Virus record (IMG/VR): IMGVR_UViG_3300048032_000107
Span: 1 to 20,601 of that record
Source of the DNA: a virus
Strand: one strand, 5' to 3'
DNA: 20,601 nucleotides
The notes under the pieces were generated by a model. That model searched no databases. It had not been told where the DNA came from and saw only the letters and a list, made by a program, of their open reading frames with translations. The translations under genes were made by a program, and so were the position numbers. Positions 2,321 to 20,601 of the stretch are shown here, one piece after another. How positions within the stretch are numbered: the first letter of the stretch is position 1; every line of letters begins with the position of its first letter.

Positions 2321-4107
2321 TGGCAGATAGTTTATCTACATTTGCTGTTCCTTGCAGTGGTGGACTTATTAACAATGTAGATCCACTTACACATGGATCG
2401 CAATTTGCGGGTTCAGCTTATCGCATAATTAATTATGAGCCATCTCTTAACGGTGGCTATCGTCGTATCTCAGGGTATACAAACGCATACGGTGAACTTA
2501 CAGGATTAGCTAATAGTCCTGTCTTAGGGTTACATGTTTCACCTGATATTAATCAAGGTATCTTTGGATGCCGTAAACCTGCATCAGGTAATAACTACCT
2601 ACACTGGTACAATCATTATTACGATGTCACACTAGCTTCAGGAGAAGGTGCTGGATTTAGTGTAGGAGAAACAGTTACAGGTGTAGCTAGTTCAAGTGAT
2701 GATTCAGGTGTAGCTGCTACAGGCACAGTTATATCTAAAACTGCAAACGCCCTTGTAATTAATTTTGGTAAATTACCTGAACAGGTATTTGCTACAGGTA
2801 ATGTCCTAACAGGCGGTACATCAACTGCTACAGGCACAGTACAATCTACCCCTGCAGTTAAAGGGTGGCAAACTGTAAGTACTTCAGGTTCCCCTACTAT
2901 GACAGGTGTAAGTCAAGTTAGGTTTGAAAGTTTTAACTGGGGTGCACCTAAGTTTGCTATAGTAGATGGCATAAACCCTGCAGCTACATATGATGGAACT
3001 ACGTATACACAGATTACACATACACAAGCACCTACGGACCCTACACTTGTAGCTGCATTTCAAAATCATTTATTTTTAGCAGGTGATCCTGCAGAACCAT
3101 ATAATCTATATTTTAGTGCACCTGTAGCTGAAACTAATTTTGACCCTGCTGCTGGTGCCGGCGTAATTAATGTAGGCTTTAAGGTAATACAGATTAAAGC
3201 ATTTCGTGACCAACTATTTATATTCGGTACAAACAACATTAAACGTCTTGTTGGTGATAACCAAGCTAACTTTGTACTGCAAAATGTTACGAACAACTTA
3301 GGTTGTATTGCACCTGATAGTGTTGCAGAGTTTAACGGTGAGATTGTATTTTTAGCACCTGACGGTTTACGTCCTGTATCTGGTACAGATCGTATTGGTG
3401 ATATTGAGCTTGCTACATTGTCTAAGCCAATTCAGTCTATCTTTGAAGATTATATTGACCAAGAAGATTTGGCGTCTATTCGTACTATTATAGTTAAAAA
3501 GAAATCTCAGTTTAGATTATTTTTTGCAGATCAAAACTCTCTTGGACTAATTGGTGGTATTCGTCGTAGTGGTGTTAGCACACAGGCAGGTTTTGAATTT
3601 GGACAACTTGTAGGTATTGAAGTAAACTGTGGTGATAGTGGTTACATTGGTGATGAAGAGTTTGTAATTCACGGGGATTCAAACGGTTTTGTTTATCGCC
3701 AAGAAGATGGAAATAATTTTAATGGTAGTAACATTTTTAGCTTATTTCAAACCCCCTACGTCTACATGGATGATCCTGAAGTACGTAAAAATATACATAG
3801 TGTAAATACTTATTTAAGAGCTGAAGGCATTCTTAACGTTATTATGGGCATAGAATATGATTACGGAGATACTGATATTTTAAATCCCACTGATTTTGAT
3901 TTTACTACAGCAGGTGCGGCAGCTTACTATGATCGTGCCACATATGACGCAGCAGAAATTTATGATGGTAATCCATCACCCATTCGTTCAACCAATGTTT
4001 CAGGATCAGGTAAGTCCGTTTCAATTAGATATGTTACCAACTCAGACCAACCTAGCCATACTATTCAAGCTTATAGTATTACGTATGGCGTAGGAGACAG
4101 GAGATAA
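2320..4107 (+). CDS. Tail tubular protein B-like nozzle protein
   Basis: This 595-residue, beta-rich protein has the hallmarks of short-tail nozzle proteins: an N-terminal NYEPSLNGGYRRISGY segment (residues 38-53) and a core with FRDQLFIFGTNNIKRL (295-310), followed by NNLGCIAPDSVAEFNGEIVF and then LAPDGLRPV. T7 gp12 is longer (794 residues). Residues about 105-178 look like a small inserted beta module with two related halves, one with GETVTG and ATGTV and the other with GNVLTGG and ATGTV. The gene starts inside the stop codon of the adaptor gene (TAATG) without a good Shine-Dalgarno, so it depends on translational coupling. Its codons are AT-rich compared with the capsid gene. The role as tail tube or nozzle is inferred from the motifs and adjacency. 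Confidence 0.75.
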   Translation: MADSLSTFAVPCSGGLINNVDPLTHGSQFAGSAYRIINYEPSLNGGYRRISGYTNAYGELTGLANSPVLGLHVSPDINQGIFGCRKPASGNNYLHWYNHYYDVTLASGEGAGFSVGETVTGVASSSDDSGVAATGTVISKTANALVINFGKLPEQVFATGNVLTGGTSTATGTVQSTPAVKGWQTVSTSGSPTMTGVSQVRFESFNWGAPKFAIVDGINPAATYDGTTYTQITHTQAPTDPTLVAAFQNHLFLAGDPAEPYNLYFSAPVAETNFDPAAGAGVINVGFKVIQIKAFRDQLFIFGTNNIKRLVGDNQANFVLQNVTNNLGCIAPDSVAEFNGEIVFLAPDGLRPVSGTDRIGDIELATLSKPIQSIFEDYIDQEDLASIRTIIVKKKSQFRLFFADQNSLGLIGGIRRSGVSTQAGFEFGQLVGIEVNCGDSGYIGDEEFVIHGDSNGFVYRQEDGNNFNGSNIFSLFQTPYVYMDDPEVRKNIHSVNTYLRAEGILNVIMGIEYDYGDTDILNPTDFDFTTAGAAAYYDRATYDAAEIYDGNPSPIRSTNVSGSGKSVSIRYVTNSDQPSHTIQAYSITYGVGDRR

Positions 4108-6211: not shown

Positions 6212-7063
6212 ATGCCCTACATTGGTAATCAACCTGCACCCACTAATGTTGGTAGTGCTAATATTACAGATGGTTCTATAGTTAATGCTGACGTTAATGC
6301 TAGTGCAGCCATAGCCCTAAGTAAAATTAGTGGTGCTGCACCGTTAGCTAGTCCTACATTTACAGGTACAGCAACTGCACCTACCGTTAATGCAAGCACT
6401 GCACTACAAATTGGTGGTGTTGCTGTTACATCTACTGCTGCTGAATTAAATATACTTGACGGAGTGACTTCTACTGCAGCAGAGTTAAACATCTTAGATG
6501 GAGTAACTTCTACTGCCGCTGAACTTAATATCTTAGACGGTGTTACATCTACAGCAGCAGAACTAAATATTCTTGATGGAGTAACTTCAACGGCTGCAGA
6601 ACTAAACAAGCTAGATGGTTATACAGGAGCAGTTGCTGATCTTAATAGAACAGACGTAACTACAGAAGGTTTATCAGAAGCAAGTAAAGTTGTGACTGCA
6701 GACAGCAACGGAGTTGTTTCATTTGACAACGGAACTGTTGAGGAAAGTACTGCCATTACATCTAGTTCAAATGCAGCTACGATTAACCTACGTGATGGTA
6801 ATGTATTTACACACACATTGTCCGAAAACGTAACATACACATTTAGTAACCCTGCAGCATCAGGCAGAGCATCTGCTTTTATTCTAAAGATAACACAGGA
6901 TAGTTCAGCAAGAACTATTACATGGCCTTCAAGCGTTGACTGGGCCGCTGCTACCGCACCAACAATAACTGCTACTAATGCAGGTGTAGACGTATTTGGT
7001 TTTATGACGGTTGACGGTGGTACAACTTATTACGGATTTACGCTTGGACAAGCACTGGGGTAA
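6212..7063 (+). CDS. Repeat tail fibre, cassette A
   Basis: This 283-residue fibre begins MPYIGNQPAP, a start I recall from many marine phage fibres, and continues through a linker with SAAIALSKISG to five exact 13-residue units TSTAAELNILDGV (residues 73-137; the last unit reads LNKLDGY). The C-terminal part (138-283) is a beta-rich domain with ATINLRDG, TITWPSSVDW and the closing GFTLGQALG. That part is nearly the same as the C-terminus of the fibre gene at 9579-10778, so the two are paralogues. A clear AAGGAGAG ribosome binding site precedes the ATG. It is followed 6 bases later by a six-module fibre gene, a pairing repeated in cassette B. It probably forms a trimeric shaft plus a tip or adaptor domain (inference). 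Confidence 0.78.
   Translation: MPYIGNQPAPTNVGSANITDGSIVNADVNASAAIALSKISGAAPLASPTFTGTATAPTVNASTALQIGGVAVTSTAAELNILDGVTSTAAELNILDGVTSTAAELNILDGVTSTAAELNILDGVTSTAAELNKLDGYTGAVADLNRTDVTTEGLSEASKVVTADSNGVVSFDNGTVEESTAITSSSNAATINLRDGNVFTHTLSENVTYTFSNPAASGRASAFILKITQDSSARTITWPSSVDWAAATAPTITATNAGVDVFGFMTVDGGTTYYGFTLGQALG
6428..6622 (+). repeat. Five tandem 39-bp units encoding TSTAAELNILDGV
   Basis: Five contiguous in-frame 39-base units at 6428, 6467, 6506, 6545 and 6584. Units 1-4 encode the identical 13 residues, and unit 5 changes I to K and V to Y. Nearly every synonymous position varies between units (for example GAATTA, GAGTTA, GAACTT and GAACTA for Glu-Leu). Confidence 0.95.
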
Positions 7064-7069
7064 TAAACT

Positions 7070-9040
7070 ATGACTGCTAGTAAAATTGTATTAAATGCTG
7101 CCTCTGGTGTAGGTGGTGCTGGCCCTGATGTGAATGAGGTGTTCAGCACTTATTTGTACACTGGTAATAACACTGCCAACAGGGTAATTAACAACGGTAT
7201 TGACCTTGCTGGTGAAGGTGGGATGGTTTGGACAAAGATACGCTATCCAGCAGGTGATCATAATCTATGGACTACAGATATTGGGGCAGGATACCGCTTA
7301 ATACCCAACGGAACAAATTCTAAAATTACTGACAATGGGTTGACTTCTTTTAATAATAATGGATTTACGATACAAGATAACAGTAGTACTAACCCCAACA
7401 ATAATGACATGGCCTCTTGGACATTTCGCAAAGCCCCTAAGTTCTTTGATGTGGTGACATGGACTGGGAATAGCACTGCGGGGCGCACTGTAAGTCACGA
7501 TCTTGGAACAGATGTAGGCTTTATAGCTATAAAATGCACATCAGCTAGTGGGGATTGGATGTCTTGGCACAGGTCTGCAAGTTCTTATGCTGGCCGTGTT
7601 TTAAAACTTAACGCCACAGATGGCGCAACTAATAATTCTTCAATATTTAACAGCACAAACCCTACCTCAACTGAGTTTACTCTTGGTTCAAGTTATGACG
7701 TAAACGGCTCTGGCGCAACATACGTTGCCTACCTATTCGCCCACAATAACGGTGACGGTGAGTTCGGCCCTGATGGTGATGCTGATATTATCAAGTGTGG
7801 TAGTTATACTGGGAATGGTTCATCAAGCGGAGTTGAGGTTGACCTAGGATTTGAACCTCAGTGGGTCTTAATAAAAAGTGCAACTCAAGGCTCAACAAAC
7901 TGGACAATTACCGACACAATGCGGGGTTGGACTGTAGGAAACGGTCAAAATTATGTATACCCAAACTCAAACTCAGCGGAACTTTCAACCACAACCAATC
8001 TGATTGACCCGTTGCCTGATGGTTTTAAGGTGTTTGGTAGTGGCAGTAATTATAATACATCAGGTCAAACCTACATCTACATGGCCATACGCCGTGGCCC
8101 AATGGCAGTGCCTGAGAGTGGAACTGAGGTGTTTGATGTTAGCGTAACTGATTACTCTGCTAATCAAACTATTGCTGCTAATATAGATGTAACCGACACC
8201 TTTATGGTTGGACATCAACCTACAAACAATAACAGTAACGGACTGTATTTGTTCAGCCGCTTAACTGGTAATAAACGCTTGCGAACTGACCAAACATTTT
8301 CAGAAAATGCAGAGTTAGGTCTTTCAGGTTTTGACACTCAGAATGGAGTTGTTGCAGGTTCATCTGATTCAGGCCAAAATGTGTGGAACGCTTCTTTTCC
8401 CTTTATAAAATACTTTATGAAACGTGCGCCTAACTTCTTTGATGTTGTGGCCTACACGGGCAACGCAACAGCAGGACGGGATATACCGCACAATCTTGGT
8501 GTAACCCCTGAAATGATATGGGTTAAGAAACGTAGCTCTGCAACAGATTCTGACTGGGCAGTGTATCACACAGGACTTGCGCAGCCGTATTACTACATTC
8601 GTTTGAACCTATCTAATACTTTCCTCAGTGATCCACAAGCATTTGATTCTGGTAATCACACTGCCACAACTTTTAGTGTTGGATTAAATGCCAGAACAAA
8701 TGGATCATCTGGCGAAGACTACATAGCCTACCTCTTCGCCTCACTAAATGGCATATCCAAGGTAGGTTCAGTAACACACTCAGGAAGCTCTACAGACGTA
8801 GATTGTGGCTTTGCATCAGGAGCTAGATTTGTTCTGCTGAAGCGTACTGACGCAACTGGAGATTGGTATTTCTGGGATACGACAAGAGGTATAGTTTCTG
8901 GCAATGACCCTTACTTAACCCTCAACGGAACTAACCAACCAGAGGTAACTAACACGGATTACATTGATCCATTATCATCTGGCTTTCAAATCTCAGGTGA
9001 CTTTACTGATGGCACATATATCTTCTACGCAATAGCGTAA
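7070..9040 (+). CDS. Six-module tail fibre or receptor-binding protein, cassette A
   Basis: This 656-residue protein is built from six tandem modules of about 100 residues, at roughly 24-120, 125-225, 239-342, 354-453, 456-558 and 564-656. A typical module opens with FFDVV or IIKCGS, then YTGN, a hydrophobic strand with a His-Asn/Asp-Leu-Gly or aromatic-Glu-Pro turn and a Lys-Arg strand. It closes with an aromatic strand such as YVAYLFA, YIYMAIRRG or YIFYAIA. Module 4 is the most degenerate. The pattern resembles a domain of unknown function that I recall from marine phage fibres (DUF7483-like, unverified). It starts 6 bases after the repeat fibre with a poor ribosome binding site, implying coupling. 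It is a full-length paralogue of the gene at 10782-12737. Receptor binding is inferred from locus and architecture; no catalytic motif was seen. Confidence 0.75.
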   Translation: MTASKIVLNAASGVGGAGPDVNEVFSTYLYTGNNTANRVINNGIDLAGEGGMVWTKIRYPAGDHNLWTTDIGAGYRLIPNGTNSKITDNGLTSFNNNGFTIQDNSSTNPNNNDMASWTFRKAPKFFDVVTWTGNSTAGRTVSHDLGTDVGFIAIKCTSASGDWMSWHRSASSYAGRVLKLNATDGATNNSSIFNSTNPTSTEFTLGSSYDVNGSGATYVAYLFAHNNGDGEFGPDGDADIIKCGSYTGNGSSSGVEVDLGFEPQWVLIKSATQGSTNWTITDTMRGWTVGNGQNYVYPNSNSAELSTTTNLIDPLPDGFKVFGSGSNYNTSGQTYIYMAIRRGPMAVPESGTEVFDVSVTDYSANQTIAANIDVTDTFMVGHQPTNNNSNGLYLFSRLTGNKRLRTDQTFSENAELGLSGFDTQNGVVAGSSDSGQNVWNASFPFIKYFMKRAPNFFDVVAYTGNATAGRDIPHNLGVTPEMIWVKKRSSATDSDWAVYHTGLAQPYYYIRLNLSNTFLSDPQAFDSGNHTATTFSVGLNARTNGSSGEDYIAYLFASLNGISKVGSVTHSGSSTDVDCGFASGARFVLLKRTDATGDWYFWDTTRGIVSGNDPYLTLNGTNQPEVTNTDYIDPLSSGFQISGDFTDGTYIFYAIA

Positions 9041-9578: not shown

Positions 9579-10778
9579 ATGAGTAAAGCAAGAGATTTAG
9601 CTAACTTGATGTCAACTGGCAATGAGTTGGCAGATGGAAATATTAGTGTTGCTGAAATAAATGACTTAACGGCTACGGCTGCTGAGTTAAATATTATGGA
9701 TGGTGTTACTGCTACTGCAGCAGAGCTAAACTTTGTTGACGGTGTTACATCTAATGTCCAGACACAGGTAGATACTAAGCAACCTTATGCTACAATTGCA
9801 GTTACTGTAGTGAACTCTGGCGGCAATAAGTATGCTCTTGATGGCACTGTACAGCAACTTGCTTTACTTACTCCTTCAACAACATATCGTTTTGATCAGT
9901 CAGATAGTTCTAACTCAGGACATCCCTTACTATTTAGTACAACTTCAAATGGTACACATGGTGGTGGTAGTGCATTTACTACGGGTGTTACTACTGTAGG
10001 TACAGCAGGTAGTGCAGGAGCTTACACACAGATTAAGCTTGAGCAAGACACGCCAAGTACTTTGTATTACTATTGTTCGGCACACTCAGGTATGGGTGGG
10101 GAAGTAAATAAAACTATATCTAAACTATCAGACTTAGGTATTACCTCTACTTCTACTGAGTTAAACATATTGGATGGAGTCACATCTACTGCTGCAGAGC
10201 TTAACATACTTGATGGCGTAACAAGTACAGCAGCAGAATTAAATATACTAGACGGTGTAACAAGTACTGCTGCAGAGCTTAACATCTTAGATGGTGTTAC
10301 ATCTACTGCTGCTGAATTAAATAAATTAGATGGCTTTACAGGTGCAGTAGCAGACCTTAACAGAACAGATGTAACTACTGAAGGAACAACAGAGGCTAGT
10401 AAAGTTGTAACTGCAGATAGTAATGGTGTTGTGACATTTGATAATGGTAAGGTAGAAGAAAGCACTGCAGTTACATCTTCAAGTAATGCAGCTACAATTA
10501 ACTTACGTGACGGTGATAACTTTACCCATACATTGAGCGAGAATGTAACATACACGTTTAGTAATCCTGCAGCGTCTGGTAAGGTATCTGCCTTTACACT
10601 TAAAGTAATACAAGACTCTTCTGCAAGAACAATTACGTGGCCCTCTAGTGTAGATTGGGCGGCAGCTACTGCGCCAACAATAACTGCTACTTCAGGTGGT
10701 GTTGATGTGTTTGTATTTACAACATATGATGGTGGAACTACGTATTATGGATTTACTGCTGGACAGGCAATGGGTTAA
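9579..10778 (+). CDS. Repeat tail fibre with cupredoxin-like domain, cassette B
   Basis: This 399-residue fibre starts MSKARDLANL, carries two TATAAELN units (residues 31-56), a cupredoxin-like domain (about 72-182), five more 13-residue units (189-253) and a C-terminal domain (254-399) closely matching the cassette A fibre, ending GFTAGQAMG. The middle domain has strands around YRFDQSD (103-109), GHPLLFS (114-120) and LYYYCSAHSGMGG (162-174). His115, Cys166, His169 and Met172 match the His, Cys, His, Met ligand order of type 1 copper proteins such as plastocyanin. Cassette A lacks this domain. The ATG follows a TAAGGAT site 10 bases after the chaperone gene. The fibre role is well supported. 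Copper binding is inferred from motif order only. Confidence 0.8.
   Translation: MSKARDLANLMSTGNELADGNISVAEINDLTATAAELNIMDGVTATAAELNFVDGVTSNVQTQVDTKQPYATIAVTVVNSGGNKYALDGTVQQLALLTPSTTYRFDQSDSSNSGHPLLFSTTSNGTHGGGSAFTTGVTTVGTAGSAGAYTQIKLEQDTPSTLYYYCSAHSGMGGEVNKTISKLSDLGITSTSTELNILDGVTSTAAELNILDGVTSTAAELNILDGVTSTAAELNILDGVTSTAAELNKLDGFTGAVADLNRTDVTTEGTTEASKVVTADSNGVVTFDNGKVEESTAVTSSSNAATINLRDGDNFTHTLSENVTYTFSNPAASGKVSAFTLKVIQDSSARTITWPSSVDWAAATAPTITATSGGVDVFVFTTYDGGTTYYGFTAGQAMG
9669..9746 (+). repeat. Two 39-bp TAAELN units before the cupredoxin-like domain
   Basis: Two in-frame units encode TATAAELNIMDGV and TATAAELNFVDGV (residues 31-56). They are variants of the 13-residue unit found downstream at 10143-10337, so the intervening 133 residues interrupt or were joined to the repeat series. 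Confidence 0.88.
9792..10124 (+). other. Cupredoxin-like domain segment within the fibre
   Basis: This encodes residues about 72-182 of the cassette B fibre. It contains a His in a strand preceded by Asn-Ser-Gly (His115) and, about 50 residues later, Tyr-Tyr-Tyr-Cys-x-x-His-x-x-Met-Gly-Gly (Cys166, His169, Met172). In plastocyanin and pseudoazurin the C-terminal ligand loop has the same Cys, His, Met order, with slightly longer His-Met spacing in plastocyanin. An extra His (127) lies in a Gly-rich loop. Confidence 0.65.
10143..10337 (+). repeat. Five tandem 39-bp TAAELN units in the cassette B fibre
   Basis: Five contiguous units encode residues 189-253. The first reads TSTSTELNILDGV, three are exact TSTAAELNILDGV and the last is TSTAAELNKLDGF. 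The number and terminal LNKLDG variant match the cassette A array, so the array was already present before the cassette duplicated. Confidence 0.93.
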
Positions 10779-10781
10779 TAT

Positions 10782-12737
10782 ATGAGCACAGCTAATAAAT
10801 ATATGCAATCCGCATCTGGTGTAGGTGGTGCTGCCCCTGATGTAGATGATGTGTTCAGCACTTATTTGTATGAGGGTAATGGCTCAACTCAAACTATTAC
10901 TAATAATGTAGACCTGTCAGGTGAAGGCGGGTTAGTTTGGATTAAGTCAAGAGCGTGGTCATATCCTCATGGGTTATTTGATACAGAAAGAGGTGCTACA
11001 AAACAATTAAAGTCTTCTAGCACTGTTGCAGAAAGAACTTTATCTACATTACTTACATCCTTCAATAATAATGGGTTTTCTCTAGGGAGTGATAGTGATG
11101 TAAATGGAACATACAGCACTGCAAAATACGCCTCTTGGACATTCCGCAAAGCCGAAAAGTTCTTTGATGTGGTGACATATACTGGGAATGGCACTAATGG
11201 TAGGGCTATCGCACATAATCTAAGTTCTAATGTAGGCTCTGTAATCATTAAAAGGCTAGATGCAACAGAGGCGTGGTACGTGTGGCACAAAGGCTATCCT
11301 TCTGGGTCTTTAAAGCTGAACGAAGATTCTGCTGGATTGTCGTTTGGATTAAACCAATACTTTGGTGGAACGCAGCCTACTAGTTCTAATTTTTATGTTA
11401 GCAGTGATAGTGGTGTAAATAATAATGGCTCAGCCTACGTAGCTTACCTCTTTGCTCACAATAACGGTGACGGTGAGTTCGGCCCTGACGCTGACCAAGA
11501 CATTATCAAGTGTGGTAGTTATACTGGTAATGGTTCTTCTCAGCATATTGATTTAGGTTTTGAACCTCAGTGGGTTTTACTCAAAAGAACAGATGGAAGT
11601 GATGGCACTTTTGACTTTTGGCACCTGACCGACAGTATGCGAGGAATGCCTGTGCTGGATAGCACAAGCGCTGCCCCTGTTTTGCTTACAAATGGTTCAG
11701 ATGCAGAAAGCACTGGGTACTCAAACATAAGGGCTACTGCAAACGGATTTGCTTTCACGCAAGGTAACTCTGGCGAGAACATCAATGGTCACACCTACAT
11801 CTACATAGCCATACGCCGTGGCCCTCTTGCTCCACCTGAGAGTGCGACTGAGGTGTTTGACATTAAAACTTCTGTAAACACTAATCCTGCGTTTACATCA
11901 GATAACGTTATTGATCTAGCAATGTTTACCCATAAAACCTCTAGCGATAATAGATATTGGTCTGCGAGACTAGCGTCTCGTGGGTATCTTTACAGCAACG
12001 CTACTAATGCTGAAGCCACAAACCAACCCACATTTGATTTTGGAGACACACAGTTTGGTCACTATAATGCCACTGGTTTAGGAACTAATTATCTAGGTTA
12101 CTTCTGGAAACGTGCGCCTAACTACTTTGATGTCGTGGCATGGAAAGTAGATGGAACAGGAGATCAAACTATTAACCATAACTTAGGTGTTATTCCAGAG
12201 ATGGTTATACATAAGAATAGGAATGACAGCGGTGGCGGTTCTGGTGACTGGTATATCGCTCACAAGGATTTGTCGGGGTGGGATAGTTCAAATGAAAACG
12301 ACCGACATGTATTAAAGTTTACATCTGCCGCATCAGCTCAACAAGGATACCACAGAGACTTTACTGATACTTCAATAAGACTTCTAAGTAATGGCGCTGG
12401 TGGTTACAACACATCTCACGGCTGCATAGCCTACCTATTCGCAAGCCTAGATGGTGTGTCTAAGGTTGGTTCAGTAACGCATTCTGGAACAACAAACGTG
12501 GACTGTGGCTTCTCCGCAGGTAGCCGCTTTGTTCTTCTGAAGCGCACTGACGCATCTGGAGATTGGTATATTTGGGATAGCACTAGAGGCATTGTGTCAG
12601 GCAATGACCCATACCTACTGCTAAACACAACAGGGGCTGAAGTGACAAACACTGACTACATTGACCCGCTTTCGTCAGGCTTCACAATTACTAGCAGCTT
12701 AACTGCGGGTACTTACATCTTCTACGCAATAGCATAA
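10782..12737 (+). CDS. Six-module tail fibre or receptor-binding protein, cassette B
   Basis: This 651-residue protein is a full-length paralogue of the gene at 7070-9040, with the same six-module plan. Module openings include VFSTYLYEGN (24-33), FFDVVTYTGN (127-136), IIKCGSYTGN (241-250), EVFDIKTSVN (357-366), YFDVVAWKVD (448-457) and KVGSVTHSG (561-569), and the end is again YIFYAIA. Openings and closings are well conserved between the paralogues, while module interiors, for example residues 55-115, 172-212 and 362-435, differ strongly in sequence and length. Conserved frames with variable interiors are what one expects of recognition proteins. It starts 3 bases after the repeat fibre with almost no ribosome binding site, implying coupling. 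No enzymatic motif is visible. Function is inferred. Confidence 0.75.
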   Translation: MSTANKYMQSASGVGGAAPDVDDVFSTYLYEGNGSTQTITNNVDLSGEGGLVWIKSRAWSYPHGLFDTERGATKQLKSSSTVAERTLSTLLTSFNNNGFSLGSDSDVNGTYSTAKYASWTFRKAEKFFDVVTYTGNGTNGRAIAHNLSSNVGSVIIKRLDATEAWYVWHKGYPSGSLKLNEDSAGLSFGLNQYFGGTQPTSSNFYVSSDSGVNNNGSAYVAYLFAHNNGDGEFGPDADQDIIKCGSYTGNGSSQHIDLGFEPQWVLLKRTDGSDGTFDFWHLTDSMRGMPVLDSTSAAPVLLTNGSDAESTGYSNIRATANGFAFTQGNSGENINGHTYIYIAIRRGPLAPPESATEVFDIKTSVNTNPAFTSDNVIDLAMFTHKTSSDNRYWSARLASRGYLYSNATNAEATNQPTFDFGDTQFGHYNATGLGTNYLGYFWKRAPNYFDVVAWKVDGTGDQTINHNLGVIPEMVIHKNRNDSGGGSGDWYIAHKDLSGWDSSNENDRHVLKFTSAASAQQGYHRDFTDTSIRLLSNGAGGYNTSHGCIAYLFASLDGVSKVGSVTHSGTTNVDCGFSAGSRFVLLKRTDASGDWYIWDSTRGIVSGNDPYLLLNTTGAEVTNTDYIDPLSSGFTITSSLTAGTYIFYAIA

Positions 12738-12753
12738 CAAGGACAAAACACTT

Positions 12754-13020
12754 ATGGAAAATGATAGCTGGCACTTAAACAAGTCTGTACCAATTACATT
12801 AATCTTTGGGTTAATTGTTCAAGGTGCAGCTATTGTATGGACAGTTTCTATGATGATGTCTGACATTGAAGATAATTCAGAAGAAATTGTAGCACTAGAA
12901 GAACGTATGGGTAGATTAGAAACATCTGTACATAACCAAGCAGTCTCACTTGCCCGTATAGACGAAAACATAAAAGCAATAAGATCATCAGTAGAAAAGA
13001 TGGCGAATAATGACCAATAG
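12754..13020 (+). CDS. Small single-span membrane protein with coiled coil (holin- or spanin-like)
   Basis: This 88-residue protein has one clear membrane segment (about residues 12-35, with ITLIFGLIVQGAAIVWTVSM). An acidic, heptad-like helix follows from about 36 to 83 (EEIVALEERMGRLETSV and IDENIKAIRSSVEKM). No lipoprotein box or cleavable signal is visible. The layout of an N-terminal anchor plus a coiled coil fits several phage lysis proteins (small holins, or inner-membrane spanins of the Rz type) as well as small virion membrane proteins. It follows the last fibre gene with a CAAGGAC site and precedes a second membrane protein gene and, one gene further, a cell wall hydrolase. A lysis role is therefore plausible but unproven. 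Confidence 0.6.
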   Translation: MENDSWHLNKSVPITLIFGLIVQGAAIVWTVSMMMSDIEDNSEEIVALEERMGRLETSVHNQAVSLARIDENIKAIRSSVEKMANNDQ

Positions 13021-13031
13021 GATTTGCCACA

Positions 13032-13499
13032 ATGATAGAAGTATTAGCTTTAGCAGGTGCAGTTACTAAGATAGCTGGTGCAGTTAGTTCTGCAGTTAAA
13101 GCTGGTAGTGATGTAGCAGACTTATTGCCTCACTTTGGTAAGTTAGCAAAGTTAGATAGTGAGATACAGTTAGCTGAAAAGGGTGCACATAAAGGCCCAT
13201 TAAGTAGACTGAGTTCATCTGAAGAAGAAGGCTTTGCAATAGCACAAGCTAAGATGAAACATAAAGAGTGCATGGACGAGTTAAGATCAGCTTGTCAGTT
13301 GTATGGACCTCCCGGTATGTGGGATTTAGTTGTAAAAGAACAAGCAGCGGCTAGACAAAGGCACAAAGAAGCGTTAGAATTACAAGCAAAGCAAAGAGAC
13401 AGATTGTTCTGGGGTATATCACTAGCAATAGGAATAGTAATATTCGTAGGTGGTTTAGCGGTAATGATCTGGGGTCTTAACGAAGTAGTAAATGGATAA
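13032..13499 (+). CDS. Small protein with C-terminal membrane segment
   Basis: This 155-residue protein begins with a hydrophobic Ala/Gly-rich amphipathic stretch (residues 1-30). It has a charged helical middle with KMKHKECMDELRSACQLYG, a conserved-looking YGPPGMWDLV turn (91-100), a long basic/acidic helix (101-124) and one strong membrane span (about 126-149). I recall related proteins in marine phage genomes but no assigned function. It starts 11 bases after the previous small membrane protein gene, so the two probably work together. Possible roles are a lysis regulator or holin partner, or a membrane-contacting virion protein. The Pro-Pro-Gly-Met-Trp turn is the best handle for family searches. 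Confidence 0.6.
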   Translation: MIEVLALAGAVTKIAGAVSSAVKAGSDVADLLPHFGKLAKLDSEIQLAEKGAHKGPLSRLSSSEEEGFAIAQAKMKHKECMDELRSACQLYGPPGMWDLVVKEQAAARQRHKEALELQAKQRDRLFWGISLAIGIVIFVGGLAVMIWGLNEVVNG

Positions 13500-13504
13500 A
13501 CAAT

Positions 13505-16171
13505 ATGGCAAGATTTAGTACGGCACAAAAAGAAACTCTACGTAAAATGGCTGAAGAAGGTAAGCTCGCTACATCTCAGCTACAAAACATTATGCGTAAT
13601 GCTCAAGAGTTAAAGAAGCTTAATAAGGGTGGTGTTGTAGGCTTTCAAGCTGGAGGTATGCCTGAGGCTCCTGGGTCTGCTCCAACTCCCGTACAAGACC
13701 CTGGTGAATTTAAAGAGGGTGATGATCAGACTGAGTATGACGCCAAGAAAGCTGCTTTTGATCAGTATAAAGCAGACTTAAAATCTTATCAAGATAGAGT
13801 TAAAGCCTATAAGGATTACAATCTAAAGAGTACACAAGAGCTTGCTCAGTCTGCAATAGCAGATCCTACTTCTTTAGTTACTTCAGCTGATGTACAAACT
13901 ATAGATCCTGATACTACAGGTACAACTCTAGCTACAGGTGCAGGTCAGATTACTGGGGATATACCACAGATAACTGCTGAAACTATTACAGCTGAAACTG
14001 CTGCTACACCTAAAGATATCGCTACTAGTAAAGTCACCGCCTCCACTTCACAGCAAGGGGTTCAAGAAGCTTTAGAGGGTGTTGAAAGAGATTATAAACA
14101 AGTAAGCGCTGCAGAAGCAGGTTTTTTACCACCTCCACGAGGTGCGATAGTTACTCAAGCCTTTGAAACTTTTCATAACCCTACTACAGGTGAAGTAGTT
14201 ACAGTTAATACGGGGGGTTATACTGCACCAGAAGGTTTTGTAAAAGGTAAACCCCAAGGTAAATTTAAAACTGGTGGTGTAAAAGCAGCTAAAGGTACGG
14301 TCTCAGATAAAGCTCAAATTACTGCAGCAGAAGGTGAACTATCCACTGAAGCAATGGCAGAAGGACAAAGATTTGAAGAGGATCGCCTTGATCTTGTCTC
14401 CGAAGATCCAAAACTACAGGTAACAAAAGATCAACTTGCAGAAGCTAAAGGTAAAAATCTTGAGGCTGTAAAAGCAGAAGTAGCTGAGTCAGAAACCCTT
14501 GAAAAAGCTGTAGCTGAAACTGCAATAGTTCAGCCTGAAGAGTTACCACCACCCGCACAGATTGCAGAAGATCAGATGGCACAAGCTCAGGCTATGACAA
14601 TGGATGGCTTGACTGATGATGCCACTGCAGTTGCGGTAAAGCTAGAAAAGTTTACTGTAGATGATGGTACACTTGCTCTTGCTATGCAAGGCGATGTAGG
14701 TGCACTAGACACAGTTGAAGGTCAGCTATCACAGTTGATGAAAGACTTTGATGATGGTACTCCTGCATGGGCTGCTGGTGCTATTCGTGCAGCTAACGCA
14801 ACTATGGCCTCACGGGGTCTGGGTGCATCCTCTATGGCAGGTGCAGCTATCCTACAGGCAGCTATGGAATCTGCGTTACCTATTGCACAGCAGGACGCAG
14901 CTACGTTTGCTAACATGAACATGGCTAACCTAAACAATCGTCAACAAACTGCATTGACTAATGCAGCAGCACAACAAGGTCTACAGTTACAGAACCTATC
15001 TAATGAGCAACAGACTGCTTTAGCAAACAGTTCTAATGCATTTGCATTGCAATCACAAAACTTGTCTAACATGCAAGCTACAGTTATTGCTAATGCTCAG
15101 ATTAAGTCTGCAATGCAGGGTCAAAACTTATCTAATGAACAACAATCTAACCTAGCAATTGCTGCACGTTTTGCTGAAGTATCTAATCTTAACTTAACTA
15201 ACAAGCAGCAGACTGCACTACAAAACAATTCATCACAACTGCAGACTAACCTTGCTAACCTTAGTAGTAAGTCACAGGCTTACATTACTAATGCTAATCT
15301 GGGTGCATCATTGCAAGGACAAGTGTTGAGTAATGAACAACAAGTAGCAATTGGCAATGCTGCACGGTACTCTGATGCTTCTAATATTACATTTAGTGCT
15401 GAACAACAGGCTCAGTTGCATAACTCATCTTTGATGCAAACAATTGGCTTAGCTGAACTTAGCTCAGCACAAGCTGCTACATTACAGAATGCTGCCCAGA
15501 CTGCAGGTATGGATATGGCTAACCTCAGCAACCGTCAGCAAGCGGCAGTTGAAAATGCTAAAGCATTCTTGCAGATGGACTTAACTAACCTGAGTAATGA
15601 GCAACAAACTGCTATGTTTAAAGCTCAAGCTACTCAGCAAGCTATTCTTTCAGATACTGCTGCAGAAAATGCTGCTAAACAATTTAATGCTTCCTCTGAA
15701 AATCAAACTAATCAGTTTATGGCAAACCTTAAGAGTCAGACTGAACAGTTTAATGCAGCTCAAAAAAATGCTGTTAATCAATTTAACGCTGGTGAAAAAA
15801 ATGCTGCGGCTAAGTTTAATACTCAGGTAGAAGAGCAACGTAATCAGTTTAATGCCTCTAATGCACTTGTCGTAGCACAGGCTAATGCACAGTGGAAACA
15901 AAATGTAACTACATTAAATACAGCTGCTCAGAATGAAGCTAATGCTGCAGATGCAGCGGCTGCTAATGCTTTTACTTCTACGACAATGGATCAGGTATGG
16001 CAACGTGAGCGTGACCTTATGGATTATGCTTATAAGTCAAGTGAGTCAGATAAAGACAGAGCTTTAGATATTGTACTTGCAGATAAAAAGTATGATGAGT
16101 ATCAAGAAGCTAGAGATGATCAAGAAGAAACTAACAAGTGGCGTTTAGCAACATCTTTACTACTAGGTTAA
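13505..16171 (+). CDS. Large Ala/Gln/Asn-rich repeat protein, probable internal virion protein
   Basis: This 888-residue protein has three parts. The N-terminus (1-60) has a helix and a KGGVVGFQAGG motif, followed by a long low-complexity Ala/Thr/Glu-rich region to about 400. Residues about 405-474 (including AIRAANATMASRGLGASSMA) look like a folded helical bundle. Residues 475-716 are eleven gapless 22-residue units (consensus N-L-S-N-x-Q-Q-x-A), followed by six 11-residue units with QFNA (725-790) and a charged helical end. Cys is absent. The 22- and 11-residue periods are those of hendecad, right-handed coiled coils. It opens the block that also holds the cell wall hydrolase and two large proteins, where T7 encodes its ejected core proteins. 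A fibrous, ejected or tape-measure-like role is inferred; the family is not identified. Confidence 0.72.
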   Translation: MARFSTAQKETLRKMAEEGKLATSQLQNIMRNAQELKKLNKGGVVGFQAGGMPEAPGSAPTPVQDPGEFKEGDDQTEYDAKKAAFDQYKADLKSYQDRVKAYKDYNLKSTQELAQSAIADPTSLVTSADVQTIDPDTTGTTLATGAGQITGDIPQITAETITAETAATPKDIATSKVTASTSQQGVQEALEGVERDYKQVSAAEAGFLPPPRGAIVTQAFETFHNPTTGEVVTVNTGGYTAPEGFVKGKPQGKFKTGGVKAAKGTVSDKAQITAAEGELSTEAMAEGQRFEEDRLDLVSEDPKLQVTKDQLAEAKGKNLEAVKAEVAESETLEKAVAETAIVQPEELPPPAQIAEDQMAQAQAMTMDGLTDDATAVAVKLEKFTVDDGTLALAMQGDVGALDTVEGQLSQLMKDFDDGTPAWAAGAIRAANATMASRGLGASSMAGAAILQAAMESALPIAQQDAATFANMNMANLNNRQQTALTNAAAQQGLQLQNLSNEQQTALANSSNAFALQSQNLSNMQATVIANAQIKSAMQGQNLSNEQQSNLAIAARFAEVSNLNLTNKQQTALQNNSSQLQTNLANLSSKSQAYITNANLGASLQGQVLSNEQQVAIGNAARYSDASNITFSAEQQAQLHNSSLMQTIGLAELSSAQAATLQNAAQTAGMDMANLSNRQQAAVENAKAFLQMDLTNLSNEQQTAMFKAQATQQAILSDTAAENAAKQFNASSENQTNQFMANLKSQTEQFNAAQKNAVNQFNAGEKNAAAKFNTQVEEQRNQFNASNALVVAQANAQWKQNVTTLNTAAQNEANAADAAAANAFTSTTMDQVWQRERDLMDYAYKSSESDKDRALDIVLADKKYDEYQEARDDQEETNKWRLATSLLLG
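14927..15652 (+). repeat. Eleven gapless 22-residue (66-bp) repeats
   Basis: Residues 475-716 divide into eleven units of exactly 22 residues with no indel; most units start Asn-Leu-Ser-Asn-x-Gln-Gln. Units 2-4, 5-7 and 8-10 form a 66-residue (198-bp) super-period: units 2, 5 and 8 carry Asn-Ser-Ser in the middle; units 3 and 6 end in Gln-Gly-Gln; units 4, 7 and 10 carry the related AARF, AARY and AKAF. At DNA level the units are diverged. Confidence 0.9.
15677..15874 (+). repeat. Six gapless 11-residue (33-bp) repeats
   Basis: Residues 725-790 form six consecutive 11-residue units: KQFNASSENQT, NQFMANLKSQT, EQFNAAQKNAV, NQFNAGEKNAA, AKFNTQVEEQR and NQFNASNALVV. Phe is invariant at position 3. 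They follow the 22-residue array after an 8-residue linker, and 11 is exactly half of 22. Confidence 0.9.
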
Positions 16172-16182
16172 GGAAATAAAAT

Positions 16183-16974
16183 ATGTACGAAAAAAATTTA
16201 CTTACAGCTAGAGAGGCAGCTGAGCTTAGATTTCAACAAAAAGGTTTGACTAACTCAAGAAAACCTAGTAAGATCTTAGGTGATCAAGATGCTGAAAAAC
16301 TTCTACCAAGTTCTAGTCAAGGTTTGGTTCCTGATAGTCGAAATAAATCTGAAGGGACATCTTCTGGTGGTTTTGGTAGCCGTGTTTTTGATATGGTTTA
16401 TGCATCTAATAAGGAACTAGACGCTAAAGTTTTGGAAAGACTTCGCCCTTTACCTAAGCCAGACACTGAGGTACTTCCAGCTAAGGACTACCCTGAATCT
16501 ACTTCAGAGGTAGGTGATGCTTTAGTTTTATCTCCTAAAGATGTGGATCTATTAGAGCGTGTAGTCTGGGCTGAAGCTGGTACTGAAGATGTAAATGGTC
16601 GTAATGCTGTTCGTGGTGTGATATTAAATAGAATTGCTTCTGATAGATTTCCTAACACACTCCAAGAAGTTTTAACAGAGTCAGGTCAATTTGAACCTGT
16701 AGGGAAAGTTGGTGGTAATATAGGTAAAATAAAAGCTCCTGCAACCAGATTAGATCAGCAATACTTTGAGTTACTACAGTACTTAAGTGATGGTATAGAT
16801 GCCTCACAGGGAAGTACTTTCTTTGTAAATAAAACTACAGCTAAAAGAAGGGGTACAGATTTTAGTGGGCCTAACCCTTTAGAGGTAGGTAGGCATACTT
16901 TTTATTCTGGGTTAGCGGGGCAAGAGCCAGTAGTAGTTCCAAAGTATTCTCATAATGTTGTTATAAAAAGGTAA
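16183..16974 (+). CDS. Cell wall hydrolase, SleB/Hydrolase_2-like, possibly virion-borne
   Basis: This 263-residue protein should cut the glycan strands of peptidoglycan. The catalytic domain spans about 117-243. LLERVVWAEAG holds the expected catalytic Glu (Glu131), followed by GRNAVRGVILNRI, FPNTLQEVL, then SGQF (168-170 is GQF) and a C-terminal His/Phe/Tyr strand (RHTFYSGL). This order matches SleB-type hydrolases. The N-terminal 115 residues are polar, low in complexity and lack a signal peptide, so they may be a virion-docking or linker region. The gene lies 11 bases after the 888-residue repeat protein and before three probable virion proteins, not beside the small membrane genes. It may therefore be an entry enzyme, a lysis enzyme or both. 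The ribosome binding site is AAGGAAAT. Confidence 0.8.
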   Translation: MYEKNLLTAREAAELRFQQKGLTNSRKPSKILGDQDAEKLLPSSSQGLVPDSRNKSEGTSSGGFGSRVFDMVYASNKELDAKVLERLRPLPKPDTEVLPAKDYPESTSEVGDALVLSPKDVDLLERVVWAEAGTEDVNGRNAVRGVILNRIASDRFPNTLQEVLTESGQFEPVGKVGGNIGKIKAPATRLDQQYFELLQYLSDGIDASQGSTFFVNKTTAKRRGTDFSGPNPLEVGRHTFYSGLAGQEPVVVPKYSHNVVIKR

Positions 16975-16980
16975 ATAAAA

Positions 16981-17496
16981 ATGTTTAACGCACCTATACC
17001 TGGACAGTCTTTAACCTCAGAGCCTAAAAATTATGCTTGGGAAAGACCCCCTCAATACGATCTACCTGAAGAAGCTTTAATGTTTCATTTAGAGAAGTTA
17101 GATGAACCAAAAAAAATTGAGGCTGTTGTAACTCTTTTATCTTTAGGTCTTGACATAAAAACTTTGACAGAAGGTATCCTGAGAAATGGGGTAGCTGAAG
17201 GTAGGCATAGTATTGATGTCTCTCTATTAATCGCACCAGTAGTGCACGAATTTATTCTTGGTGTAGCTAAAAGTGCTGGGGTAGATTATGATGAAGGCCT
17301 TGACGAAGGCGAAGAAATAGACATCGAGGGTACTCGAAACCAGATTAGTAAAAAGAAAGCAGCTAAAATTCTAGCTGAGTATGAGAAAGAAGAAGAGATA
17401 GAACTACCTGAGGTACCTAAAGAGGAGCCACAGGTAGAAGAAGAGGTTGAAATAAAAGAACAACCTAAGGGTTTAATGGCTAGAGGAGTTGTATAA
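16981..17496 (+). CDS. Conserved-looking virion-associated protein with acidic C-terminus
   Basis: This 171-residue protein opens MFNAPIPGQSL and then has a folded helical part (about 25-100) with ALMFHLEKLDEPKKIEAVV and HSIDVSLLIAPVVHEFILG (75-93). It ends in a Glu/Lys/Pro-rich tail (about 115-160) that looks disordered or coiled. No membrane segment or enzymatic motif is seen. I recall similar openings and the SID-x-S-x-x-IAP-x-x-HE pattern in marine phage structural proteins, without a known role. It starts 6 bases after the hydrolase stop and its own stop overlaps the next start as TAATG. Its arginine codons are AGA, AGG or CGA only, the opposite of the capsid gene. It is probably a small scaffold-like or internal virion component. 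Confidence 0.62.
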   Translation: MFNAPIPGQSLTSEPKNYAWERPPQYDLPEEALMFHLEKLDEPKKIEAVVTLLSLGLDIKTLTEGILRNGVAEGRHSIDVSLLIAPVVHEFILGVAKSAGVDYDEGLDEGEEIDIEGTRNQISKKKAAKILAEYEKEEEIELPEVPKEEPQVEEEVEIKEQPKGLMARGVV

Positions 17497-18368
17497 TGGG
17501 ATTTTATACAGGTGCAGTTCTAGGTCTTCAAGATATTAGAGAAGAAGAACAACGTAAGATTGAGAATGAAATAAGGGCAGCTAATTCAGAGAGACTCCAA
17601 AGAGCTGATGAAAGAGCTGAAGCTATGTTTAACTTAAATCAGCGTACAGCAAAGTTTGAGTTGGCTAAATCTTTTTCAGAAAGATTAGGTAATTTTAGCG
17701 GGTCTGAGGCTTCTCCAGAAGATAAACAAAACTTAACTCTCCTTAGTTCAAGACTTAGTGGGGTTGAGGGTGCAGATAAATTTCTTGCTCCTTTTGTTAC
17801 TAACCCAAATTTAGCTACTACTGCTATGAAATCAATTTTAGAGGCGGAAGAAAAGGGTGAAGGCAGAGTACAAATAGGTGGTGAAACTCTTATGAACCTA
17901 TTAAATGTAGTTGGCCTAGAAAATCTTCAAGATACTGTATCTGATTACAGGGGTATGGGAGATATTCTGGCTGCAATATCCGGTAGTGAGGATGAATTTA
18001 ATGCTTTAGTTAATGCTGCAGCTGAGTCTAGAAGTACATCCACACTTGCGGTTGATATAGATCCTAGTGTATATGAAAGACCTAATGCAGACTTTCTTGA
18101 ACAACAAGAAAAAATTTATCTAGCTGCCATAAAACAAGCGGCAACTCTGCATCTAAACTCAGGTGCGTTCGAGGGGGATTCAGTAACTTTTAGTAAAGTT
18201 AATGAGGCTCTTAAAGACGCTAAACCTGACTATTTACCACCAATACTAATACAAAGATACGGTGAAGCTGCGTTTAATGCCATGAGTGGTATGTCTGACC
18301 CCATGTATACAAACTTAGAGAATAATATTTTTCTAAAACCCTACTTGCAAATGTGGCAGACGCAATGA
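17496..18368 (+). CDS. Helical internal virion-type protein
   Basis: This 290-residue protein is not recognised by family. Residues 12-62 form a long charged helix (DIREEEQRKIENEIRAANSE, then ERLQRADERAEAMFNLNQRT), probably a coiled coil. The rest is mixed helical and soluble, with a Leu/Gly-rich middle (about 125-165) and a C-terminus with FLKPYLQMWQTQ. No signal, membrane span or catalytic motif is visible. It starts inside the previous stop (TAATG) and its stop overlaps the next start (ATGA), so three consecutive genes are translationally coupled. This points to subunits of one complex made in set proportions. Position and size suggest a core or ejected protein comparable in place, not proven in homology, to the middle of the T7 gp14-gp16 set. 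Confidence 0.6.
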   Translation: MGFYTGAVLGLQDIREEEQRKIENEIRAANSERLQRADERAEAMFNLNQRTAKFELAKSFSERLGNFSGSEASPEDKQNLTLLSSRLSGVEGADKFLAPFVTNPNLATTAMKSILEAEEKGEGRVQIGGETLMNLLNVVGLENLQDTVSDYRGMGDILAAISGSEDEFNALVNAAAESRSTSTLAVDIDPSVYERPNADFLEQQEKIYLAAIKQAATLHLNSGAFEGDSVTFSKVNEALKDAKPDYLPPILIQRYGEAAFNAMSGMSDPMYTNLENNIFLKPYLQMWQTQ

Positions 18369-20601
18369 ACAAAACTTTAAATGAACTTTTAATGGAAGAG
18401 TTGGAAAAAAAGTACCAACCTGCATCTCCTTTAGATTTAAATGCTACTCAGCCTGAAGTTCAGCCTGAACCTCAACCTGAACCTATGATTGAGGAGCCTC
18501 AAGAAAAACTTTCTGAGTTTGAATTAGCTTCGTCAAATGTCTATGATGAAATTATTGTACCCTACATGGAAGCTAGATGGGGTATGAGTTATGTGAACGA
18601 AGATAGAGAAGAAGTTGTTTCTAGATTTATGAACAACATGCGAGGTTTTAGTGGGGGTAATACTGTTAGGGCTGGTAAGGAACTGTCGTGGTTAGCCGGT
18701 GTATCTGACGAGGATAGAGTTAAGGCTGGTGCTGCTTATTCTTTTGTAGATCAGGACATGGCAAACCTATACAGCAGTGATACGACACTAACTGAAAAAG
18801 CTTCAGGTACATGGGACTACCTAAGGCAGGGTGTATTGGACCCCATCAATATTGTTGGAGGTTTTGTAGGTAAGATTGCAGGGGGAGCTACCTTTAGGCT
18901 TGGATCAGCAGCTGCACGTAAGGCTGCTATAAATGAGTATGGTAGAAGAATAGCTAAGGGTGCTACAGAAAAAGCAGCTACAAGAGCTGCAAATAAAGTT
19001 TTCTTAAAAAGTTCTAAAGAGGCTTCAGAAGCTCTGGCAAAAGAAACCGTAAAAAAGAATGCAACAAAGAGTGCTCTTAATAAATTAGTTACTAGGTCTG
19101 GACTTGCAGAGGTAGGTGCAGCTACTGCTGTGGATATGGTAGCTGGTGCTGTTACAGACTATGGTTATCAAAAAGCTATGTTAAAAACTGGTGCTCAGGC
19201 AGAGTACAGTGAGCTTCAAACCTTCTTATCGGGTGCGTTTAGTTTTGCAGCAGGAGGAATCTCTGCAACTACTGTAGCACTGAGAGGAACATCAGGTTTA
19301 AATCTTGCTAGTAAAGCTACACCAAAGCCAACATCAGAGGGTATTGGAAACGAACTTGTAGCTTCAACAAAGTTTTTAGTTTCTAACATAAAGTCTTGGG
19401 ATTCAAAAGTTACTTCGGGTAGACAGCTAGATGAAATACCAGATAGTTCTTTCTTCGCATTAATAAATGGAGATGAAGAAGGTGGTTGGAAGGGTTTAAA
19501 AGATATCTTTGCAGAACGTAATCTACAATTTACTAATCCAGATATGTATGAGAATAAATCGGATTGGATTACTGATGTAATCATGGACATGCCACAAGCA
19601 GAGGCTGATAATTTTATAAGTTCTTTTAAAGATATAACTGGTATCACTAAAGCTTATGATAATAAGGACTTAACCTTAGAAACTTTTGCTGATGTTTTTG
19701 CTAGAAAAGCTAGTGACTTAGGTAAGAACTTAGGTACTATAAGAAATGTTGGTGCTGTTTTAGGTGATAGTAATATAGAAGAGTATACCTTTAATGATTA
19801 TGCAAAAGCTCTAGGACTTACTGAAGGTAAAAAAGTAGACCCTAGAATTAATGAATCTTCTGATCTACAGAACAATTTAATTCGGGGTATTGTTTCTAAC
19901 TTAGGTACGACAGCTTTAAACGTAAGGGGTTGGGGTCTAGCTACTGCTACCAACAGTGCATCTGATTTGGTACAGGCTCAGATGTTAGCTTTAACTGGAA
20001 ATACTAGAGCTGCTTCACATCTAATTGCAATGCAAGGACAAAAAGTACGCAACCTAGTTGACAACAATACTACACTAGAAGTCTTTTTAGACTACTTAAA
20101 TACAAGACCAGATGTAGGTAAAGCTATGTCTAGGGAAATCTCTGGTGGGGTTGAACAAAAAATAAAATTAGACTTTAATAAGTCTTTTGCAAACCAGAAG
20201 TTTACAGAGTTTGTAGACGGTGTACAAGCTATCAACATGGTGTATGCTCAAGATACTATGACCAAAGCTCAAGAGTTTATGTATCAACTGGATAAAAATA
20301 TACGTCTACAATTTGATATGACTTACTCAGAAATGTTAGCTAATGATGATGCCTTTAAAATTATGAGTAGCGATCTTTATAAGTTAGTTGAAAAAAAGGC
20401 TGTAGATGAAACAGAACGTGCAGTATTTAGTAGGTCTTTTAAAGATGCCGATAACCAATTCATTAGAGGCGTAGCCCGTGTCATAGAAGATGTAAGAAAT
20501 GTACCTGGGATAGGATACCTTGCGCCTTTCGGAAAGTTTTTTAATAACAGCGTCTCTAACATATCAGACCATACAGGTATTACACTTGCGATGCGAGCTA
20601 T
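18365..20601 (+). CDS. Very large internal virion-type protein, 3' end outside the window
   Basis: The frame opens at an ATG overlapping the previous stop (ATGA) and stays open for at least 745 codons to the edge, so the protein is partial. It begins MNKTLNELLMEELEKKYQPA, then a Pro/Glu/Gln linker (about 30-47) and a folded part with PYMEARWGMSYVNEDREEVV. Around residue 155 comes LDPINIVGGFVG, followed by basic Ala-rich helices and Gly/Ala-rich hydrophobic segments (GAFSFAAGGISATTVAL) that could insert into membranes. The remainder is long and helical, with PGIGYLAPFGKFF near the edge. No lysozyme motif is seen in the visible part, in keeping with a separate hydrolase gene upstream. Huge, helical, last in a virion cluster: this fits an ejected internal virion protein. 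A polyvalent multi-domain protein is the alternative. Confidence 0.68.
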   Translation, partial: MNKTLNELLMEELEKKYQPASPLDLNATQPEVQPEPQPEPMIEEPQEKLSEFELASSNVYDEIIVPYMEARWGMSYVNEDREEVVSRFMNNMRGFSGGNTVRAGKELSWLAGVSDEDRVKAGAAYSFVDQDMANLYSSDTTLTEKASGTWDYLRQGVLDPINIVGGFVGKIAGGATFRLGSAAARKAAINEYGRRIAKGATEKAATRAANKVFLKSSKEASEALAKETVKKNATKSALNKLVTRSGLAEVGAATAVDMVAGAVTDYGYQKAMLKTGAQAEYSELQTFLSGAFSFAAGGISATTVALRGTSGLNLASKATPKPTSEGIGNELVASTKFLVSNIKSWDSKVTSGRQLDEIPDSSFFALINGDEEGGWKGLKDIFAERNLQFTNPDMYENKSDWITDVIMDMPQAEADNFISSFKDITGITKAYDNKDLTLETFADVFARKASDLGKNLGTIRNVGAVLGDSNIEEYTFNDYAKALGLTEGKKVDPRINESSDLQNNLIRGIVSNLGTTALNVRGWGLATATNSASDLVQAQMLALTGNTRAASHLIAMQGQKVRNLVDNNTTLEVFLDYLNTRPDVGKAMSREISGGVEQKIKLDFNKSFANQKFTEFVDGVQAINMVYAQDTMTKAQEFMYQLDKNIRLQFDMTYSEMLANDDAFKIMSSDLYKLVEKKAVDETERAVFSRSFKDADNQFIRGVARVIEDVRNVPGIGYLAPFGKFFNNSVSNISDHTGITLAMRA

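Follow-up and report, generated by a model that had tools for sequence, protein, structure and literature searches.

The gene at 16183..16974 of the window, by which we mean the whole 20,601-nucleotide stretch of viral DNA analysed here (IMG/VR record IMGVR_UViG_3300048032_000107), encodes a SleB-type peptidoglycan hydrolase that probably travels in the virion and acts at entry, a location that we infer from comparison with related phages. We favoured a virion-borne entry enzyme because, among these relatives, the catalytic domain is exchangeable, the N-terminus is common to proteins with different catalytic domains, and a second lysin was found in 15 of 18 contigs. These results suggest that the protein is an exchangeable tool for host entry rather than a host-bursting enzyme.

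The window comes from a phage of the marine HMO-2011-type group. In tblastn searches, the proteins of the gene block matched those of Roseobacter CRP phages, Pelagibacter HTVC phages, and Puniceispirillum phage HMO-2011, and further matches came from Rhizobium, Vibrio, and other phages. The nearest records were IMG/VR contigs: L004 showed 97% identity across the hydrolase, and L005 and L006 showed 72% across its residues 96-263, while the capsid protein of G001 was 100% identical to that of the window and the major capsid protein of G002 (52.3 kb) was 96% identical. The record of the window phage starts at the capsid gene and is incomplete.

The hydrolase gene and its product

The open reading frame at 16183..16974 (plus strand, as are all genes from 12754 onward described below) is a genuine gene. 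It starts with ATG and is preceded by AGGAA at 16171..16175, a possible ribosome-binding site. Between the window and L004, dS was 0.078 and dN was 0.012, namely, the changes were mostly synonymous relative to sites. The preliminary description had suggested that the product may be a separate polypeptide with an N-terminal extension of 115 residues; indeed, the frame encodes 263 residues, and the extension ends near residue 113.

Residues 1-113 (16183..16521) form a mostly disordered module with two helices predicted at low confidence, one at residues 9-19 (16207..16239) within the conserved block YEKNLLTAREAAELRFQQKGL and the other at residues 64-86 (16372..16440) within the conserved block VFDMVYASNKELDAKV. 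This module is the proposed docking part. Residues 114-263 (16522..16971) form the SleB-like catalytic domain, which was modelled with a block-mean pLDDT of 84-97. The Pfam family PF07486 (Hydrolase_2) matched residues 135-241 with an E-value of 5.9e-14 and 53 bits against a curated cut-off of 27. When the AlphaFold model was compared with the PDB using Foldseek, the SleB catalytic domains 4fet and 4f55 (three chains) were the sole matches at E ≤ 0.001, with E-values of 3e-5 to 5e-5 and TM-scores by target of 0.71-0.73. Furthermore, E131 (codon 16573..16575), which aligns with the SleB catalytic Glu, was conserved as Glu in all 29 SleB rows in our alignment (A9). By profile, fold, and this conserved Glu, the protein groups with SleB, and its lytic activity is predicted. 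No hydrophobic segment was found in the protein. The best PHROG match of its domain carries the label 'endolysin'.

Neighbouring genes

The hydrolase was found, as the preliminary description had placed it, between a giant repeat protein and three further frames, the order being an 888-aa protein, the hydrolase, and proteins of 171, 290, and at least 749 aa. The Gln/Ala-rich repeat protein occupies 13505..16171, and we call the position between its C-terminal part and the 171-aa protein (p171, 16981..17496) the slot. The next two frames encode p290 (17496..18368) and the start of p1117 (18353..20601), a large helical protein that is cut at the window end and has 1,117 aa in L004. The earlier assignment of these three as probable core proteins could not be upheld by homology: profiles of p171, p290, and p1117 against PDB sequences gave nothing credible (best E-values 0.17-0.36), and the Foldseek search with p1117 gave, among the matches listed, nothing at E ≤ 0.001 and no phage ejection protein, a null result that is not evidence of absence. 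Between the window and L004, p290 diverged faster (dN 0.088) than the hydrolase, and p171 had no non-synonymous difference.

The small membrane proteins described earlier as preceding the repeat protein were also confirmed. They are an 88-aa protein with one hydrophobic segment at residues 14-32 (12754..13020) and a 155-aa protein with such segments at residues 4-22 and 128-146 (13032..13499), and neither adjoins the hydrolase gene. Both were near-identical in relatives with diverged neighbouring genes, and the 155-aa protein was 72% identical in CRP-901/902 and 66% identical in CRP-114, an Autographiviridae phage in which the homologue sits near DNA maturase genes; the 155-aa protein therefore seems mobile.

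The scan of the window for protein families covered ten proteins, with the fibre-like frames set aside. By eye, the fibre-like genes form pairs that are alike and apparently duplicated (6212-7063 with 9579-10778, and 7070-9040 with 10782-12737), and the first pair bears repeated STAAELNILDGVT units. A 595-aa protein at 2320-4107 matched phrog_5107, labelled 'amidase', at E 8e-53 and matched no Pfam family; HMO-2011 gp44 and CHOED gp6 bear the same label. The label is doubtful, since the position of the gene suggests a tail or nozzle protein. By this PHROG match a second virion lysin is possible in the window, and, if the label is true, the structural block would contain a further lysin.

Variety of catalytic domains in the slot

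With edges set by the repeat protein (its C-terminal part) and by p171, we surveyed the slot in the best 80 of at least 588 p171 relatives (at least 600 pattern matches). These were ranked by likeness to the p171 of the window, and the survey accordingly reaches the nearest part of the group. Both flanks were present in 104 loci. All slots except that of L014 were resolved, giving 103, of which 84 were distinct; among the 103 are named isolates and loci that overlap on the same contig. The ORF finder gave no slot frame in L143, L144, L152, and L169; lysozyme- or SLT-like frames seen by eye in L143 and L169 were left uncounted.

Among these best 80 of at least 588 relatives, 76 distinct slot proteins were longer than 200 aa (226-478 aa, mostly 226-345) and fell into 15 C-terminal clusters, separated by the lack of any BLASTP link at E 1e-4, and six other distinct slot proteins had 65-76 aa. 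Several of the hydrolase families concerned probably have a lysozyme-like fold in common. When Pfam was run on these 82 frames (the 76 large and the six small membrane-type ones), it gave Phage_lysozyme2 18 times, SLT 12, Phage_lysozyme 10, Hydrolase_2 8, GH19 7, Transglycosylas 5, and SLT_4 once, a tally in which one member may count repeatedly. Most clusters matched peptidoglycan hydrolase families, namely SleB, GH24, SLT, phage tail lysozyme, GH19, Rpf-like, and others. Clusters x1, x2, x5, and x6 had no Pfam match, yet they had PHROG lysin matches, and x3 and x7 matched no lysin family clearly in either collection; x8 lay outside the single-member scans. The cluster labels SLT, GH24, PL2, and GH19 were assigned from the Pfam counts and by eye, with single members confirmed.

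The slot protein of G001 is cut by the contig end, and its C-terminal part was 67% identical to the SLT-type slot protein of G002. Among the isolates, CRP-603 gp48 is SleB-type, CRP-13 gp38 showed 51-56% identity to x4 slot proteins with weak tail lysozyme and SLT matches, and CRP-207 gp43 had LysM and a weak GH19 match. HTVC104P gp60, at the slot position, had no lysin match. In more distant relatives, HMO-2011, CRP-1, and CRP-3 among them, the slot was mostly without a hydrolase. In G047, a 238-aa frame of PAPS-reductase type by reading (L324:2397-3113, reverse-complement count) lies between the repeat gene and a short slot frame. A description of the slot was absent from the literature listings and passages searched (PMC9038755, PMC6918029, PMC8528129, PMC8954989, PMC12629253, PMC6116005); the original HMO-2011 paper was outside that search.

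Exchange of catalytic domains on a common N-terminal module

Ten slot proteins, all of types other than SleB, supplied the N-termini for a profile. This profile found the N-terminus of the window protein at E 2.3e-16 among 6,615 frames. There were 23 matches up to E 1: 22 were listed slot frames, and the other one (L126) ends directly before p171. Furthermore, the SleB protein of L005 and the SLT-type protein of G001 had another N-terminal type in common, with 43% identity over 86 residues. Since N-terminal types are common to slot proteins with different catalytic domains, the N-terminus and the catalytic domain recombine.

The extent of the exchange was estimated on a p1117 tree of 60 phages, restricted to loci with a complete p1117 and a labelled slot frame. 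On this quick tree (LG+G4, long-branch warnings), the catalytic type changed at least 35 times, compared with a minimum possible of 13 and a shuffled mean of 44.8; 0 of 200 shuffles gave a count as low. Close sisters with unlike types were L005 (SleB) and L165 (SLT), L139 (GH19) and L140 (x4), L179 (tail lysozyme) and L183 (GH24), and L171 (x6) and L174 (SleB).

A short motif also recurred in this region. The C-terminal region of p171 has GLM[SA]R in 16 of 18 copies (GLMAR at 17470..17484 in the window), and a looser GLMxR form was found within the first 80 residues in 30 of 63 slot N-terminal clusters, compared with a shuffled mean of 4.0 and a maximum of 11 in 1,000 shuffles, whereas it occurred in residues 111-190 in 1 of 57. 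This shuffle test is post hoc, because the motif was spotted after looking, and the slot protein of the window has GLVPDSR, which does not fit the motif. The motifs in p171 and in the slot N-termini may represent a docking or processing site in common.

Other lysins and the question of lysis

The preliminary description had called for a search for other lysins elsewhere in the genome. Using phmmer seeds on all frames of at least 70 aa, we scanned 18 slot-hydrolase contigs, 48.6-58.9 kb long. Pfam covered 44 of 44 listed frames below 420 aa in G002, 36 of 53 in G044, 49 of 104 in G035 and G042, and a mixed set of 62 from G042, G036, G046, and CRP-2. Another lysin was found in 15 of the 18. Ten (G005, G029, G030, G031, G032, G034, G037, G038, G039, and G040) have a lysin like CRP-1 gp55, which is annotated as an endolysin and has a match to PHROG endolysin 465; three (G002, G035, and G044) have a GH108 lysin; and two (G033 and G041) have a GH19-like protein with a peptidoglycan-binding-like tail by reading. 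The search gave no second lysin in G036 and G042 (phmmer and part Pfam) or in G043 (phmmer only). G044 has SleB in the slot and GH108 elsewhere. The GH108 genes of G002 and G044 lie upstream of the terminase genes, each preceded by a small membrane-type gene; we read the latter as holin-like, and PHROGs assign it no function. The isolate CRP-9 has both the slot protein gp39 and the endolysin gp71, and CRP-1 and G011 have a gp55-type endolysin together with a slot frame of just 65-69 aa. Taken together, these findings indicate that the slot enzyme is usually additional to another lysin.

Endolysin had been our first reading of the slot enzyme and was lowered after the second lysin had been found in these contigs. 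On that reading, the hydrolase would form a lysis cassette with the 88-aa and 155-aa proteins, the repeat gene interrupting it. In line with this are the hydrophobic segments of the two small proteins and the PHROG label of the hydrolase domain; in addition, CRP-3 and RHph_N3_13 have an annotated lysozyme, placed one or two small genes ahead of the repeat gene. However, a soluble endolysin needs no common N-terminal module, the two small genes also appear to precede the repeat gene in G011 (by ORF reading), where the slot has no hydrolase, and the other lysin present in 15 of 18 contigs includes the GH108 of G002 and of G044, the latter with SleB in its slot. We therefore regard this reading as unlikely.

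A further ground for it is the CRP-2-like subgroup (CRP-2, CRP-603, CRP-207, and contigs), in which a conserved membrane-type gene for 138-147 aa lies between the slot and p171; copies were seen at L009:10730-11173 and, as relatives, in L160, L163, L167, L171, L172, L333, and L334. The encoded protein is possibly a holin. No other endolysin was found in the three CRP-2-like genomes examined (CRP-2, G036, and G046). The slot enzyme of this subgroup may serve lysis, or entry and lysis.

The latter case corresponds to the proposal, also made in the preliminary description, that one enzyme serves entry and lysis, being packaged in the virion while the surplus acts at lysis. The three genomes and their holin-like gene adjoining the slot are in line with it for that subgroup, although two of them (CRP-2 and G046) have a post-portal SleB domain as well. 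Such an economy would be unnecessary where another lysin exists, which is the case in 15 of 18 contigs, including GH108 in the nearest long relatives of the window; furthermore, a query with the 147-aa protein against the first 14 contigs and isolates found it in CRP-2 only. For the window phage we hold dual use to be slightly less probable still than a pure endolysin. An action on the wall in assembly, superinfection exclusion, or host takeover, by an enzyme that is neither virion lysin nor endolysin, is very improbable, as the slot is conserved and placed inside the structural block.

A SleB domain after the portal gene

SleB domains were also found between the portal and capsid genes, in the gene that follows the portal. 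They occur in about 50 distinct frames and are mostly 45-58% identical to that of the window, down to 37%; L258 and L263 gave no frame in this survey. The domain usually lies near the N-terminus of a gene between the portal and a gene read as scaffold (L202-L257; L010:28103-31981; L009:28316-30259). Among 15 contigs with this domain, 11 have p171, and their slot frame has 56-69 aa in ten and encodes a 355-aa CRP-2-like protein in one; the 11 are related rows and include near-copies. The association of a post-portal SleB with a short slot in 10 of 11 fits a function moving between two late proteins. The exclusion does not work in the other direction: in HMO-2011, CRP-1, and MW202701 the slot is short and the post-portal gene has no Pfam lysin.

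Discussion

In the relatives, modules recombine and another lysin is usually present, and from these results we propose the following course for the virion-borne entry enzyme. The hydrolase is encoded as its own polypeptide among virion genes, as the gene order shows, and would be expressed late. Its N-terminal module, with two short predicted helices and disordered linkers, would dock to a virion component encoded next to it, perhaps p171 or the repeat protein; docking is suggested by the module being common to different catalytic domains. On ejection, the SleB-fold domain would cut the wall locally and let the ejection apparatus cross, an activity suggested by the fold and Glu131. Lysis would be carried out by another enzyme from elsewhere in the genome, and 15 of 18 long relatives have such a second lysin; the record of the window itself starts only at the capsid gene. 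The catalytic domain would be a replaceable cartridge, often exchanged while the slot is kept and, in many cases, the N-terminal module as well.

Several observations speak against the entry reading: the 'endolysin' PHROG label, the CRP-2-like subgroup, the 'amidase' at 2320-4107, the two small proteins with hydrophobic segments, the failure to find a second lysin in G042 and G043, the lack of a match to T7 core proteins, and the mostly hydrolase-free slot of distant relatives. Our literature searches found no virion proteomics for this phage group.

We further put forward, tentatively and at somewhat less than even chance, a wider model for HMO-2011-type phages, in which the slot holds an interchangeable virion lysin cartridge. 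The short N-terminal module would dock its product, possibly by means of a motif resembling G-L-[MA]-x-[RK] that p171 also has near its C-terminus. The catalytic part would be swapped at a high rate among about a dozen hydrolase families, perhaps tracking host wall chemistry. A post-portal SleB could take the place of the cartridge, and one subgroup, with a holin-like gene added, could use it for lysis instead. Because so many wall-cutting families occur in one slot, it offers a natural experiment for virion targeting and host matching of entry enzymes, and the isolates CRP-9, CRP-13, CRP-603, and CRP-207, which have a filled slot, are usable for testing. The case also shows that the function need not follow from a domain-match label like 'endolysin'.

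Comparison with known systems

Within the group, CRP-603 gp48, annotated as 'cell wall hydrolase', is SleB-type and lies in the same slot; it is 26-32% identical to the slot SleB of the window type and 50-52% identical to the L158/L174 type, and is followed by the 147-aa holin-like gene. In CRP-3 gp36 and CRP-2 gp58, the gene after the portal, an N-terminal SleB domain is 56% and 49% identical, respectively, to that of the window by tblastn; there, SleB is fused to a large protein elsewhere, and no slot lysin domain was recognised in those phages. The spore cortex-lytic SleB of Bacillus (4f55 and 4fet) has the same fold and the aligned Glu, whereas its matches leave the N-terminal 113 residues of the window protein uncovered, and the window protein stands in a phage context with a predicted activity.

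The split version of the T7 design suggested in the preliminary description is borne out in part: the separate polypeptide, the common N-terminal module, the conserved block, and the second lysin in 15 of 18 contigs agree with it, whereas the profile and fold searches found no homology of the neighbours to T7 core proteins. The likeness to the N-terminal lytic transglycosylase domain of T7 gp16 lies in the peptidoglycan cutting proposed for a podovirus ejection gene block. In G001, whose capsid protein is identical to that of the window, the slot domain is 67% identical to one matching Pfam SLT, and SLT activity is of the kind described for gp16 in a review (PMC8954989). The T7 domain, however, is part of a 1,318-aa protein, whereas the window encodes a separate 263-aa SleB-type polypeptide and not the N-terminus of a giant ejection protein; unlike the gp16 domain, the slot protein changes its family between relatives. 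The same review (PMC8954989) covers K1E/K1-5 gp35 and a swap of the hydrolase domain between gp15-like and gp16-like proteins. The likeness there lies in the mosaic movement of lysins among ejection proteins, while in the phages related to the window different catalytic families replace one another within a single small gene, with at least 35 changes across 60 phages.
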